Origin: Gemmatimonadota bacterium
GTDB taxonomy: Bacteria; Latescibacterota; UBA2968
Reading direction: 5' to 3'
NCBI GenBank assembly: GCA_009838845.1
Contig: VXRD01000029.1
Location: 1 to 64,000 of the forward strand
Length of the DNA stretch: 64,000 nt
In this document: positions 15,901-26,376 of the stretch, piece by piece
Layout: each line of letters starts with the position of its first letter
How positions within the stretch are numbered: position 1 is the first letter of the stretch
The notes under the pieces: generated by a model
Databases searched by the model: none
Seen by the model: only the letters and a program-made list of their open reading frames with translations
Told to the model about the DNA's origin: nothing
Made by a program: the position numbers and the translations under genes

Positions 15901-16953
15901 ATGAACAATCCCTTGAATTTAGACCCACAGCGCAGATTGAAATTCGGTATTATCGGGATCGGAGAACGGTGCTGGCAGCACATCGAACGGATCAACAACA
16001 ACAGCGATTCATGTCAGATCCTGGCGATATGCGATATCCGCCAGGACCGACTCGATTATGGCCTAAAAATCTGTCGCGGCACACCGATAACCTGTACGGA
16101 TTACCGGGAAATGCTCAAGCACCCAGACCTGAATGTGGTCCTGATCACAACGCCGCACAACCTCCACGAGGCCATGACCATAGACGCCCTCAATTCCGGC
16201 TGCGATGTCATGGTAGAAAAACCCATGGCGATGAACGCCACCGAATGCGATCAGATGAATGCGGCGGCCCGTCTCAACAATCGCATTTTAATGGTAGGAG
16301 AGCAGCACCGATACTTTGCACTGAACCGTAAAGTAAAAGCGCTTATCGATGTCGGATCAATCGGCGATGTCATCTGTATCAATGCCCCGTCCTTCCGCGG
16401 CCCCTGGTCAGATGGCAAACGCTGGTTGAACTTTTTTACAACCTCTGGCGGCGGTCTGCTCTCCGAGTCTTGCCACGACCTGGATGCCTTTTGTTGGATC
16501 ATTGGATCACGTCCTGTAAAAGTGGTCGGCTTCGGAGGGATTGAAGTCTTTCAAGATCAGGATACGCTTGATCATGCCCAACTACTGTACGAATTTGAAA
16601 ACGGCGTGAAGCTCTCCTACGGATTCGGTATCTTTGTCCCGGGTGGGTACAGGGATATTGGAATCCTGGGAAGTCACGGACGGCTGGAATACACGCGATA
16701 TGGAAAGAAGATTTATCAGTATAAATACAGACCGGGTGATCGGCAGCCGGGAAAGCCTATTGTTCACGATCTCACTTTGGAAATGGCGGAAACCGGGCAT
16801 GCGGGAACAAATGCCATGTACCGGGAATTCATTACCTGCGTTCGAGAACGCCGTGAACCCCTTACTGCCGGCACTGTAATCGTGGATTCTGTTCGCATGT
16901 GTACAGCCGGACAGAAGGCGATTCGCCAGGGGAAGATAATTAATTTGAGGTGA
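15901..16953 (+). CDS. Gfo/Idh/MocA-family oxidoreductase
   Basis: 350 residues. Rossmann motif GIIGIGERC near residues 16-24, EKP at residues 106-108, and GGGLLSESCHDLDAF with the conserved catalytic-region His. It is a complete family member of normal length. The gene starts 15 bases after the sulfatase stub and is probably read from the same promoter as the upstream PhyH gene. It is diverged from the oxidoreductase at 741. Probable role: NAD(P)-linked oxidation of a sugar or cyclitol released by desulfation. Confidence 0.87.
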   Translation: MNNPLNLDPQRRLKFGIIGIGERCWQHIERINNNSDSCQILAICDIRQDRLDYGLKICRGTPITCTDYREMLKHPDLNVVLITTPHNLHEAMTIDALNSGCDVMVEKPMAMNATECDQMNAAARLNNRILMVGEQHRYFALNRKVKALIDVGSIGDVICINAPSFRGPWSDGKRWLNFFTTSGGGLLSESCHDLDAFCWIIGSRPVKVVGFGGIEVFQDQDTLDHAQLLYEFENGVKLSYGFGIFVPGGYRDIGILGSHGRLEYTRYGKKIYQYKYRPGDRQPGKPIVHDLTLEMAETGHAGTNAMYREFITCVRERREPLTAGTVIVDSVRMCTAGQKAIRQGKIINLR

Positions 16954-17172: not shown

Positions 17173-17239
17173 TTCTTTGACCATGTAATATTTTTTGACC
17201 CAAATGGGACTTAAATACAGGAGGCCTTCTACAGTATCT

Positions 17240-17878
17240 ATGGAAACACCAAAGACAAAAAAGTTAGACACCCTGGTTCGAGCAGCTCAGTTGGGCAAAA
17301 GCGAAGCTTTCGGGCATATTGTTTCTCGTTACCAGAGCATGGCATATGCCAGCGCTTATGCTCAGACCGGCGATTTTCACCTGGCTCAGGATGCCGCACA
17401 GGAAGCTTTTATTGAGGCTTTTCTCTGCCTGGATACTTTGCGAGAACCCGCTGCGTTTCCGGCCTGGTTTCGCCGCTTTGTGGTTAAACACAGCGACCGC
17501 CAACTGCGCAAGTCGCGGCCTCTGGTGATGGATCCAGCAGAGATTCAAACCCTGCCTTCAGATCTGCCCAATCCAGAGGTGCTTTTCACCCAACAGCAAA
17601 CTCGACATGAAGTGCGAGACGCCATTAATGCTTTGCCGAGCGCACAACGCGAAGCCATTGCCCTCTTCTACCTGGAGGGGTATTCACAAAAGGAAATCGC
17701 GAAGTTCTTGGGTGTGTCGGTCGGAACCGTTGGGAAACGACTTTACGATGCCCGTAAAGGGCTAAAAAAAAGGATGGAGAACATGGTCAAAGAAACACTG
17801 CAACAAAACCAACCAGACGAATCGTTTGCTACGAGAGTGCGATTCTTTATCGCTTTGAAACAGCTTCAACATTGTTAG
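17240..17878 (+). CDS. ECF-type RNA polymerase sigma factor
   Basis: 212 residues from the ATG at 17240; AGGAGG lies about 15 bases upstream. The frame reaches back to a TTG at 17195, but the protein-like part starts at METPKTKKL. Region 2 covers LGKSEAFGHIVSRY and QDAAQEAFIEAFL; region 4 has a helix-turn-helix in GYSQKEIAKFLGVSVGTV. It should direct core polymerase to a specific promoter set. The last residues switch from FIALK to an unconvincing QLQHC tail. The -1 frame from there continues smoothly into the downstream ankyrin protein, so the two genes may form one polypeptide or be translationally coupled (7-base overlap). Confidence 0.85.
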   Translation: METPKTKKLDTLVRAAQLGKSEAFGHIVSRYQSMAYASAYAQTGDFHLAQDAAQEAFIEAFLCLDTLREPAAFPAWFRRFVVKHSDRQLRKSRPLVMDPAEIQTLPSDLPNPEVLFTQQQTRHEVRDAINALPSAQREAIALFYLEGYSQKEIAKFLGVSVGTVGKRLYDARKGLKKRMENMVKETLQQNQPDESFATRVRFFIALKQLQHC

Positions 17879-19452
17879 ACGCCGATGCTTCACTCGCCCA
17901 GGCTGAAGCCGATTGGTGGACAGGCGCCGACCAGAATGTCAACCCGGGAACGACACCCATGACATGGGCGACATCGGTCGGTGATGAGGCCATGGTGGAT
18001 CTATTGCTCAAACATGGGGTAGACATAAACACCGCAGACAAGGGCGGAAACACCCCACTATTGAATGCAGTTATGCAGGGACAGCACCAGATGGCTCAAA
18101 TGCTGCTGGACAGAAAGGCCAACGTCGAAGCGAGAGGCTGGTGTAAACACACGCCATTGCATCGCGCAGTGATGCGCGGCGACGAGGTCCTGGTAGAACT
18201 GCTTCTCAATGCAAATGCCGAAATCGAGGCCGTAGATGCAAAAGGCTATACCGCCACTGACTGGGCAGTGCTAAAGGGCCGCCAGAATTTGGTGAATCTT
18301 TTGGTGAAGCGCGGGGCAAAAAAGCCAAGTGTTCCCGTACGCAAACCATTGAAAAAAACAAAACCTGTATCTCAATCTCGCTCAGTCATTGCCGGTGCTT
18401 CGGTTCTCGGACGCATGATAGATGCAGACTGCGCACCCATAGACGGCGAAGATCCAATAAGCGATTCGGAGCAACAGCTTGTATGCGGTGGGGTTAAAGA
18501 CGCTGTTTTGCCGATTCTTGAAACCGGCATTAAGGCCGTAGATCTTTTTGCGCCATTTAAGCGGGGTGGTCACGTTGGTGTGGAGAAGTGCATTGGTGTG
18601 GGCGTACTGATGCTGGGTGAGCAGATTGCCCGCAACTTTATTGCGCAACATAATGGCCGAATCGTTTTTGTGGGATTTGCCGGAGAAGATCCAGCGGTGA
18701 AGTTTAAAGAGTGGCGGGAGTTCGTTTGTGATGGCAAGCTGCTAGAAGAGAACACCGTCTTCGTACTGGCTCGTGAAAAAGACGCTGAATCCAGGCACCA
18801 CCATGTTGTTGAAACAGGCCTGACCATAGCCGACGGCTTTCACAACCAGGGCCATAATGTCCTACTGATCGTAGAAGCTGGATTGGCGCAAAAAAAAGGC
18901 ATCATCCCATTTCTCAGATCGCGCGCGCTCGTCACACCAGAAGCAGCCATTACCACCTTCTATTGGGGATGTCAACCCTCAGATCTCAATGGTGATACTT
19001 TCGGTTTTTTAGATGCTGTTATTGCCATGAGCGGTCACCGAGCCAAGGAGGCTCTGTATCCAGCAATTGATCCTCAGCGGTCGCGCTCAATCCTTCTGAG
19101 TGACAACCGGCTTGAGATGGCTCACAAAGAAACGGTGGCGCAGGTGAGACAAACGCTTGTGCAATACGATAACCAGAATCTACAAGCGGCATTCAAAGAA
19201 GGGCGTTTGGTTGAAAGCCTGATTGATGAAAATATAAAAGATCTTGCATTACGCGCCCGGCGTTTGGCCCTCTTTCTCACACAACCCTATCACGGTACAG
19301 AATCTTGGATAGGCAAGCCGGGCGAAACCGTGGCTCTGCAAGATACGCTTGAAGGGTGCAGGCAAATTCTGGATGGCTGCCACGACGACGTGCCCTTAGG
19401 CTCATTTGGATTTATCGGTAGCATCAATCAGGTGCAGCGCAATTCGGATTGA
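17872..19452 (+). CDS. ankyrin repeats fused to a degenerate F1-ATPase beta-like domain
   Basis: 526 residues from a TTG overlapping the sigma-factor stop. Residues 25-150 are about four ankyrin repeats. After a Lys/Pro linker, residues 175-526 follow F1-ATPase beta-subunit order: LGRMIDADCAPIDGEDP, ETGIKAVDLFAPFKRGG (217-233), TGLTIADGFHNQGHNVLLIV, YPAIDP, RARRLALFLTQPYH, and a tail ending near GSINQV. The Walker A stretch GGAGVGKT is replaced by EKCIGVGV (residues 238-245), and the Walker B Asp appears as Glu. ATP hydrolysis is therefore unlikely; a scaffold or sensing role is more plausible. It is not part of an ATP synthase operon: no other atp gene is near. It is probably a partner, or the fused C-terminal half, of the sigma factor. 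It ends before a clear terminator. Confidence 0.8.
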   Translation: MLDADASLAQAEADWWTGADQNVNPGTTPMTWATSVGDEAMVDLLLKHGVDINTADKGGNTPLLNAVMQGQHQMAQMLLDRKANVEARGWCKHTPLHRAVMRGDEVLVELLLNANAEIEAVDAKGYTATDWAVLKGRQNLVNLLVKRGAKKPSVPVRKPLKKTKPVSQSRSVIAGASVLGRMIDADCAPIDGEDPISDSEQQLVCGGVKDAVLPILETGIKAVDLFAPFKRGGHVGVEKCIGVGVLMLGEQIARNFIAQHNGRIVFVGFAGEDPAVKFKEWREFVCDGKLLEENTVFVLAREKDAESRHHHVVETGLTIADGFHNQGHNVLLIVEAGLAQKKGIIPFLRSRALVTPEAAITTFYWGCQPSDLNGDTFGFLDAVIAMSGHRAKEALYPAIDPQRSRSILLSDNRLEMAHKETVAQVRQTLVQYDNQNLQAAFKEGRLVESLIDENIKDLALRARRLALFLTQPYHGTESWIGKPGETVALQDTLEGCRQILDGCHDDVPLGSFGFIGSINQVQRNSD

Positions 19453-24141: not shown

Positions 24142-26376
24142 ATGTATCCGGACAAAGAAGCTGATCTGCTCAAGGCGTTTTCACCTGCTGAACCCATATT
24201 TACAGTAGATCCCGATTATATCAAGCGGGCGCGCTCGTTGAGCAAACGGGAAGATAACCCGTGTGGGCAAGCCCTTAAAGCCCTGCTTGTGAAAGCGGAT
24301 GCCGCTTTGAAGCAGGAACCGCTGACCATTGTGAACAAACCGATCTTGCCTGCCAGTGGTGACAAACACGATTACATGAGTGTTGGACCTTACTGGTGGC
24401 CAGACCCCGATAAGCCTGACGGTTTGCCTTATATCCGACGAGATGGCGAGGTCAATCCCGAGGTTGAAAAAACGGACCGCCCTTTGTTGGCAAAATTCAT
24501 TTCAACGGTGAAAACGCTGGGGTTAGCGTATGGTTTTACACATCGAGAAGACTACGCTGCTCAGGCTGCATTGTTGTTGCGAACATGGTTTATGAATCCC
24601 GAAACCAGGATGAACCCAAACCTTTTGTTTGGGCAGGCCATACCCGGGATATGCGAAGGGCGAGGTATCGGGCTTATTGAGACGGCTGCATTTGCACGCG
24701 AGATGCTCCCTGCGGTCAGTTTTTTGCGCGACTACAGGAACTGGTCCCAAAAAGATATGGAAGATTTGCAGGCCTGGTTTCACGCGTTTCTCGAATGGAT
24801 GTTGAAGCATCCTTATGGGGTTGACGAAGCGCGTCATGGCAATAACCATTCGAGTTCTTATGATATTCAGGTTGTGACATTCGCGCTTTTTGTGGGGCAA
24901 TCAGATCTTGCGCGAATGATATTAAAAGGGGTGGGAGAAAGAAGGATTGCTGCTCAGATTGAGCCAGATGGTCAACAGCCTCTGGAACTCGCACGCACAA
25001 AGGCACTTGGATACGCGAGTATGAATTTGGAGCTTCTTTTAGAACTCGCTGAGATTGGCCGACAGTGGGGTATTGATCTCGCCAATTTTGAATCTACCGA
25101 TGGGCGATCCATGCGACGCGCCTTTGATTGGCTTTATCCCTACTGGACGGGCGATCGCGAGTGGACGCTTCCACAGATTCAACCCTTTTCTGGGGAGCCC
25201 GCATTTAGATGTCTGAGGCTCGCCGCTTACCTTTATTTAAATATGGATTTTGAGCCTGTGAAAGCCGAATTGGCATGCGTGAATCAGAAAGAGAAAGCGC
25301 AACAAATCTACAATCTTTTGGTACCGCCATTTGAAGGAAGCGGTTTACACGCGCTCAGAATTTCCGAAGACGTCGTCATCCGTGATCCCCATGTATTGGT
25401 CGATCCAGAATTAGCGAACGGAGACCCCGCTCTCTTGCCCGATCCAGAATTTGTGAACGGAACCCCAACCCTCAGTGAAGTCGAAGTCGCGTTTTTCAAA
25501 GAGAATGGTTTTCTTGTGAAACGTGGGTTTCTGCAAGAGAAGGAGACATTTGACCGGATCGTGGATTATGTGTGGGAAAATGTGCCGCGTGAGATTGTCA
25601 AACGCGACGATGTGCAAACGTGGTTCGATGCACCACACGGACAGTGGACAGAGGCGGATGCCGAACAGGCAGGGCACTTTTCGCGCGGCACATGGAAGAT
25701 GCGCTCGCGTAAAATTGGTACAGAGCCTTTTTTTGTCGATAAGATCGCCAACCACCCACGTATGCGGCAGTTGGTTTCATTGTTTATCGGCGACCCGGTT
25801 AAGCGTGCAAATCGGGTGCGAGGGGTCTATTGTATATTTCCAAAACCACCAAATTCAGAAAGTCGTTTGGCCCCCCATGGAGACCATACAGCGGCTCAAT
25901 TGTCTGCAATGGTTTTTGTAGATACGGTGCCTCCGCACTCTGGTGGCTTTACAATCTGGCCGGGGTCACATTACATGAGTCACCTGTATCACACTACTGT
26001 TTACGGTCCCCTTGACCCCGACCTCGCAGAGCCATATAGCAAAGCCCGTGACAATGTGCTGAGAGAGATTGCGCCAGTGGAGTTTTCCGGCAAAGCAGGG
26101 GACGTTGTTTTCTGGCATCCTCGCCTTATTCACGGGGGAGGTGTCAATCGCTCTGCTGACCGCGATCGCCCTGTCGTGCGTCTCGTCGTTCCTTGTGAGT
26201 ATCAAAGAGATGGTATGACGCCATATTTTAACCTGTCGCACGGACCGGCACCAAACCGTCAGTGGTGGGTCGATACCCGGAACTTTCGAGAGGATGTGCC
26301 AGCGACCGTTGACAATATGTGGGATGGATGGGCATTTGATACCGGTACAACAGACGCCGGGGACTGCTCAGCGTGA
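24142..26376 (+). CDS. fusion: PL5-type alginate lyase-like domain + PhyH dioxygenase domain
   Basis: 744 residues after AGGAG; no signal peptide. Residues 1-400 match the alginate lyase (PL5) helical barrel: GPYWWPDPDKPDGLPYIRRD (83-102), a catalytic-type NNH at 234-236, and EGRGIGLIE. A linker (415-445) contains two tandem 13-residue units (DPELANGDPALLP, DPEFVNGTPTLSE). Residues 446-744 are a full PhyH domain: FFKENGFLVKRG, Fe ligands His579 and Asp581 (APHGDH), GGFTIWPGSH, His664 (RLIHGGG) and a distal Arg. Joining a uronate lyase to a 2-oxoglutarate oxygenase is unusual and ties PhyH proteins directly to glycan breakdown. The frame is intact throughout. Confidence 0.82.
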   Translation: MYPDKEADLLKAFSPAEPIFTVDPDYIKRARSLSKREDNPCGQALKALLVKADAALKQEPLTIVNKPILPASGDKHDYMSVGPYWWPDPDKPDGLPYIRRDGEVNPEVEKTDRPLLAKFISTVKTLGLAYGFTHREDYAAQAALLLRTWFMNPETRMNPNLLFGQAIPGICEGRGIGLIETAAFAREMLPAVSFLRDYRNWSQKDMEDLQAWFHAFLEWMLKHPYGVDEARHGNNHSSSYDIQVVTFALFVGQSDLARMILKGVGERRIAAQIEPDGQQPLELARTKALGYASMNLELLLELAEIGRQWGIDLANFESTDGRSMRRAFDWLYPYWTGDREWTLPQIQPFSGEPAFRCLRLAAYLYLNMDFEPVKAELACVNQKEKAQQIYNLLVPPFEGSGLHALRISEDVVIRDPHVLVDPELANGDPALLPDPEFVNGTPTLSEVEVAFFKENGFLVKRGFLQEKETFDRIVDYVWENVPREIVKRDDVQTWFDAPHGQWTEADAEQAGHFSRGTWKMRSRKIGTEPFFVDKIANHPRMRQLVSLFIGDPVKRANRVRGVYCIFPKPPNSESRLAPHGDHTAAQLSAMVFVDTVPPHSGGFTIWPGSHYMSHLYHTTVYGPLDPDLAEPYSKARDNVLREIAPVEFSGKAGDVVFWHPRLIHGGGVNRSADRDRPVVRLVVPCEYQRDGMTPYFNLSHGPAPNRQWWVDTRNFREDVPATVDNMWDGWAFDTGTTDAGDCSA

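Follow-up and report, generated by a model that had tools for sequence, protein, structure and literature searches.

The window, by which we mean the whole 64,000-nucleotide stretch of DNA analysed, from an uncultured bacterium, carries at 17240..19452 (+) a gene for an ECF sigma factor, ankyrin repeats and a degenerate F1-ATPase beta subunit, split in this copy by a 16-bp deletion. As it presently reads, the N-terminal sigma factor occupies 17240..17878 (+), from an ATG at 17240 to a TAG stop at 17876-17878; the frame is open from 17195, and AGGAGG at 17219-17224 lies upstream of the ATG. Pfam placed sigma region 2 (PF04542, Sigma70_r2, 2.7e-8) at 17321..17515 (+) and sigma region 4 (PF08281, Sigma70_r4_2, 1.6e-17) at 17606..17758 (+), both over cut-off, and TIGR02937 also matched above its cut-off (3.4e-25). 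Regions 2 and 4 were found without sigma1 or sigma3, and the protein is thus an ECF-type sigma factor, as the first-pass annotation had it. No cognate anti-sigma gene was seen among the annotated adjacent genes.

The ankyrin and pseudo-F1-beta part follows at 17872..19452 (+), with a TTG start that overlaps the sigma frame by 7 nt. It comprises about four ankyrin repeats (17929..18321, +) and a pseudo-F1-beta region (18373..19449, +), which runs from the end of the linker strand through the nucleotide-binding-fold core to the C-terminal helical domain. The N-terminal crown (beta-barrel) domain of F1-beta is absent from the pseudo-beta, and the ankyrins stand in its place. Pfam reported Ank_2 at 1.5e-23 with four Ank stretches, and ATP-synt_ab (PF00006) at 2.6e-14, above the gathering cut-off. 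The best family models were those of the alternate F1 beta (TIGR03305, 2.6e-43) and AtpD (TIGR01039, 1.6e-42), both far under their curated cut-offs. The AtpD score of 145.9 bits, against an equivalog cut-off of 462.85, marks the pseudo-beta as a divergent relative of AtpD rather than an AtpD itself; a separate, normal AtpD/AtpA pair lies on contig C77 of the genome. In the comparison across the AtpD, AtpA, Rho and FliI families, FliI (7.8e-20) and AtpA (1.2e-7) were far weaker than the beta models. An origin from Rho or FliI/SctN was ruled out, since the AtpD profile outperformed FliI and the pseudo-beta grouped with beta, not alpha, in the tree.

We also modelled the window ankyrin-beta protein with AlphaFold2, using an alignment that included the homologue from a distant member of the same class (G043, described below) and 24 AtpD sequences, and obtained a pLDDT of 81. 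Foldseek against the PDB returned F1-beta chains of solved ATP synthases as the best matches (E ~1e-27, TM 0.56-0.62 by query; E 4e-27 with TM 0.61 at best). Because AtpD sequences were in the alignment, this fold match is not fully independent, though it agrees with the profile matches. The model is in line with the first-pass reading of an F1-beta-collinear region behind about four ankyrins. It suggests that the F1-beta fold is largely retained, and motifs such as FLTQP and DTLEG are kept in the C-terminal helical domain. A full-length model of the G043 protein was poor (pLDDT 61) and too uncertain for use.

A protein search of 60 relatives found the same arrangement in two of them, in each case as one chain. 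In a sister species of the same genus (G003), the locus is one uninterrupted frame of 759 codons (742 when counted from the ATG) and 98% identical. In G043, a 732-codon frame has the same domain order at 34% identity, and 47-48% identity in its sigma part. In both proteins, a single polypeptide gave Pfam matches to sigma region 2, sigma region 4, Ank and ATP-synt_ab, so that a domain lies behind sigma4 in the same polypeptide in both relatives, and the frame is broken in the window. The single-chain architecture is well supported, and its conservation at 98% in G003 and with the same order in G043 supports the view that the link between sigma factor and F1-beta is not due to chance.

The DNA alignment of the window with G003 (~2.2 kb) contained exactly one indel, a stretch of 16 bp absent from the window. 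The missing bases are GAAACAG AGAGATATA, with a second GAAACAG on the other side; the remaining copy of this 7-bp direct repeat, at 17857..17863 (+), marks the junction. The deletion shifts the frame, creates the TAG at 17876 and leaves the TTG as a second start for gene callers. The first-pass annotation was right that both frames exist, but the overlapping pair that it described, a sigma gene and a partner, is a single gene cut by a deletion. A programmed frameshift at 17860 was ruled out as the main reading, since the window DNA itself lacks the 16 bp that G003 has. As judged from the sequence, the gap could be either a true slippage deletion in the organism or an assembly error.

The 7-nt overlap, and a TTG that could permit re-initiation, might still allow the strain to make a sigma factor on its own and, by translational coupling, a separate ankyrin-pseudo-beta protein that acts on it in trans, in an anti-sigma-like manner. 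We regard this as very unlikely, since one 16-bp loss between two copies of GAAACAG accounts for the split, the last residues of the sigma frame (LQHC) are read out of frame, the TTG has no evident ribosome-binding site ahead of it, and both relatives encode one chain. The single frames in G003 and G043 rule out the two-gene, anti-sigma reading of the locus, and with it the 'anti-sigma-like partner' suggested earlier; the presence of one polypeptide in both intact relatives indicates that the module acts in cis.

We then compared the catalytic features of the pseudo-beta with those of AtpD. The P-loop (18565..18609, +) reads GGHVGVEKC-IGVGVL, where AtpD has GGKIGLFGG-AGVGKT, and its Lys and Thr are replaced by Val and Leu. 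The destruction of this motif, already remarked upon at first pass, extends to G043, where the equivalent residues read AGVGVG. Among 80 F1-type frames picked up by a genome scan regardless of their P-loop, 79 kept the motif, and the sole exception was the G043 fusion; another P-loop count was set aside, as possession of a P-loop had been the basis for gathering its sequences. At the Walker B position (18859..18876, +), AtpD VLLFID has become VLLIVE. The Glu for Asp noted earlier is thus real in the window lineage, but G043 has Asp at this position. Walker B is followed by a shortening common to both lineages: the distance to the adenine pocket (FxHLD motif) is 52 residues in the window and 54 in G043, compared to 80 in 75/75 AtpD sequences. 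By this alignment, both share a loss of ~26 residues of the predicted catalytic interface. The GVGERTREG motif of the catalytic-Glu region and the adenine-pocket PADDxTDP motif are also lost in both, and RGGK of AtpD has become RGGH in the pseudo-beta. These substitutions and losses predict an F1-beta part that is catalytically dead, and has long been so.

Loss of catalysis has not meant loss of constraint. The beta parts of the window and G003 differ by 10 synonymous and 4 non-synonymous changes (dS 0.039, dN 0.005), and the share of synonymous changes, 10 in 14, speaks against neutrality (binomial p 0.0002), indicating purifying selection on this part. These data bear on whether the window copy is decaying, with the fusion a rare and dispensable accessory and the deletion a mark of its loss. 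The broken frame would fit such a reading, as would the small number of carriers, since a profile built from the three pseudo-beta domains found the fusion in 3/47 genomes of the class and 3/64 of the phylum. Across the whole gene, however, dN/dS between the window genome and G003 is about 0.16, and there is no second lesion in 2.2 kb; the architecture has been kept over the long term in G043, and misassembly at a direct repeat would give the same picture. We therefore consider decay unlikely.

The only other strong match of this profile in the phylum, in the genome G056, was a normal alternate F1 beta with GGAGVGKT. A peptide-pattern scan of 84,980 species genomes, run both with the window domain and with a profile, and which can miss divergent members, yielded no further fusion, only AtpD sequences with an intact P-loop and the contig of G043 itself (JABJJN010000054.1, labelled 'Gemmatimonadetes bacterium isolate SI074_bin69'). 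Viral contigs yielded no fusion, and neither did two other phyla, represented by 82 and 9 genomes. This sigma factor of three parts, one of them a dead F1-beta, is real and conserved but rare.

The two pseudo-beta lineages (window/G003 and G043) share 21-35% identity by segment, and 28-36% with ordinary AtpD. As they are no closer to each other than to AtpD, a single origin is argued from the architecture, the P-loop loss and the deletion, and not from the beta tree, in which the branches are too long for the donor to be placed (SH-aLRT 76). In the sigma tree, the sigma domains of the window, G003 and G043 grouped with one homologue from G014 that has neither ankyrin nor beta, with an SH-aLRT of 89, below the 95 mark.

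Extensions at the C-terminus are known to replace anti-sigma factors in the groups ECF41, ECF42 and ECF238, where they act through a ligand-induced change in conformation or through protein interaction (PMC8999054). A close parallel is ECF42 (Streptomyces Sven_0747 and others), in which sigma2-sigma4 is likewise followed by protein-interaction repeats in one chain, and here, as there, no adjacent anti-sigma factor was found. Unlike ECF42, with its ~200 residues of TPR, the extension described here consists of ankyrins and a pseudo-F1-beta, and the YCII neighbour of ECF42 was not seen (PMC8999054). Pfam found no TPR in the window protein, which therefore falls outside ECF42. ECF41 and ECF56 (SnoaL-like) and ECF238 (CorE, cysteine-rich) also place a sensory or inhibitory module behind sigma4, but these are small, a SnoaL-like domain of ~120-150 residues or a cysteine-rich tail, compared to ~540 residues of repeats and dead ATPase here (PMC8999054). 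What appears to be new is the identity of the module, a dead F1-beta, and not the C-terminal extension as such. In a literature search confined to non-subscription papers, and hence without the 2021 ECF re-classification, we found none in which an F1-beta homologue forms part of a factor for transcription initiation.

Seen from the ATPase side, the best match in sequence and fold is to AtpD (TIGR01039) and the alternate F1 beta (TIGR03305), with a collinear nucleotide-binding-fold core and C-terminal helical domain. Unlike AtpD, the pseudo-beta has no crown and no functional P-loop, is shortened by ~26 residues at the catalytic interface and is fused behind a sigma factor. Subunit B of V/A-type ATPases is another F1-family subunit that has lost the catalytic P-loop and kept its fold as a structural partner; it is not fused to a regulator, and the window domain appears to be nearer to F1-beta. 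The F1-like gliding ATPase of Mycoplasma (G1-beta, MMOB1670) is likewise an F1-beta paralogue put to a new use, with an additional domain at its N-terminus, but its GGAGVGKT is intact and it operates within an alpha3beta3gamma ATPase ring (PMC11864180).

Taken together, we consider it probable that the product of the locus is one polypeptide, an ECF sigma factor under the control in cis of its ankyrin and dead F1-beta extension, which would serve as a nucleotide-independent docking module. Control by protein docking is favoured by three features: there is no annotated anti-sigma neighbour, two protein-interaction modules lie in cis, and the nucleotide site is not usable. The extension begins immediately behind sigma4 and may, at rest, hold sigma2 and sigma4 unable to bind core RNA polymerase or the promoter; alternatively, activity could require a bound partner, as has been suggested for ECF42. 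Together, the ankyrins and the pseudo-beta would form the docking surface, and binding of a cytoplasmic partner would switch sigma2/sigma4 between inactive and active states, and with them a putative regulon. Against this interpretation we count the fact that there are only three carrier genomes and that the frame is interrupted in the window copy.

The first-pass annotation had also offered a scaffold or an energy-state sensor. Sequence cannot decide between them, and the missing Lys, Thr and ~26-residue stretch argue against a conventional nucleotide sensor. Such a sensor would have the pseudo-beta bind nucleotide without hydrolysing it, or dock on the alpha subunits of ATP synthase, and pass the energy status on to the sigma factor. 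Non-catalytic F1-alpha subunits do bind nucleotide without hydrolysis, the F1-beta fold appears to be largely retained, and FLTQP and DTLEG persist in the domain that in F1-beta carries the DELSEED region. However, both lineages have lost the P-loop residues, GVGERTREG, the interface residues and the PADD motif, and the crown, which holds the F1 ring together, has been replaced by ankyrins. These losses disfavour the energy-sensor idea, which we consider improbable. We are equally doubtful of its broader form, in which the sigma factor would have adopted a dead F1-beta as its sensor and would monitor through it the ATP synthase of its own cell, or energy metabolism, as one of several ECF sigma factors that use captured machine parts (F1-beta, FliG, FliM-like) for control.

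A dead beta might instead oligomerise, with itself or into an F1-like ring, and so keep the sigma factor in store in an inactive complex. Domains of the F1 family do form rings, and a fold kept without catalysis suits a structural role, but with the crown and part of the subunit interface gone, storage of this kind is highly improbable. The docking module that we favour looks like an old motor part reused for control. If this is correct, a core bioenergetic fold has been captured, stripped of its catalysis and kept under selection inside a sigma factor.

The window gene belongs to a wider set of sigma factors with long extensions. In the class, 22 of the 27 strongest sigma matches (E up to 1.1e-30, a set that includes both query loci) sit in frames of at least 330 codons. 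Their extensions include ankyrin arrays, GNAT, LRR and HEAT repeats and a FliM-like region, preceded by a similar linker ('..MVEETL..PSRDERF..'); weaker sigma matches carry TPR, three FliG_C domains, a BFN nuclease domain or FG-GAP repeats. If the proposed control holds, an ECF group in a little-studied phylum would swap many kinds of C-terminal module on one sigma core, and would offer a ready collection of natural variants in which the control of ECF activity by extensions can be studied.

Several members of this set were observed individually. A frame in G013 (contig 244, L195:436-2463, +) joins an ECF sigma factor to FliG_C (PF01706, 5.6e-32), with two stretches passing alone and a third repeat visible, and one in G043 (contig 75, L193:659-1837, +) ends in a FliM-like domain (PF02154, 4.2e-6, just above cut-off). 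FliG_C domains reach 19 per genome (in G043) across the class, many in separate FliG-like frames of 340-420 codons, and were found in 0/11 genomes of the window's genus. In the window's own genome, a bifunctional-nuclease (BFN) domain (2.9e-16) is fused to an ECF sigma factor, in a protein that also matches KH weakly (contig 153, L204:1453-3075, -). A GNAT acetyltransferase-like extension of ~420-520 residues recurs behind ECF sigma factors in several genera (L175, L176, L177, L182, L184, L187 and L189); the GNAT match was over cut-off in L175 and L182 and absent in L187, and L176, L177, L184 and L189 were assigned by sequence likeness.

The annotated neighbours encode PhyH, Gfo/Idh, sulfatase, amidohydrolase and polysaccharide lyase proteins, and two adjacent frames had no Pfam match. 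PhyH, Gfo/Idh and sulfatase genes lie close to the window gene and to that of G043 alike. These genes, with the polysaccharide lyases, give a weak hint of glycan use, weak because each genome has at least 141-150 PhyH genes. In the window's own genome, at least 150 PhyH (phytanoyl-CoA dioxygenase) genes were counted in 5.75 Mb. Immediately upstream of its sigma gene the window has a Gfo/Idh gene (15901-16953), which is absent from that position in G003, where PhyH adjoins directly (L207). Further along the window, at 24142-26376, an alginate lyase domain (1.2e-85) is followed by a PhyH dioxygenase domain (1.8e-17) in one frame, an unusual fusion.
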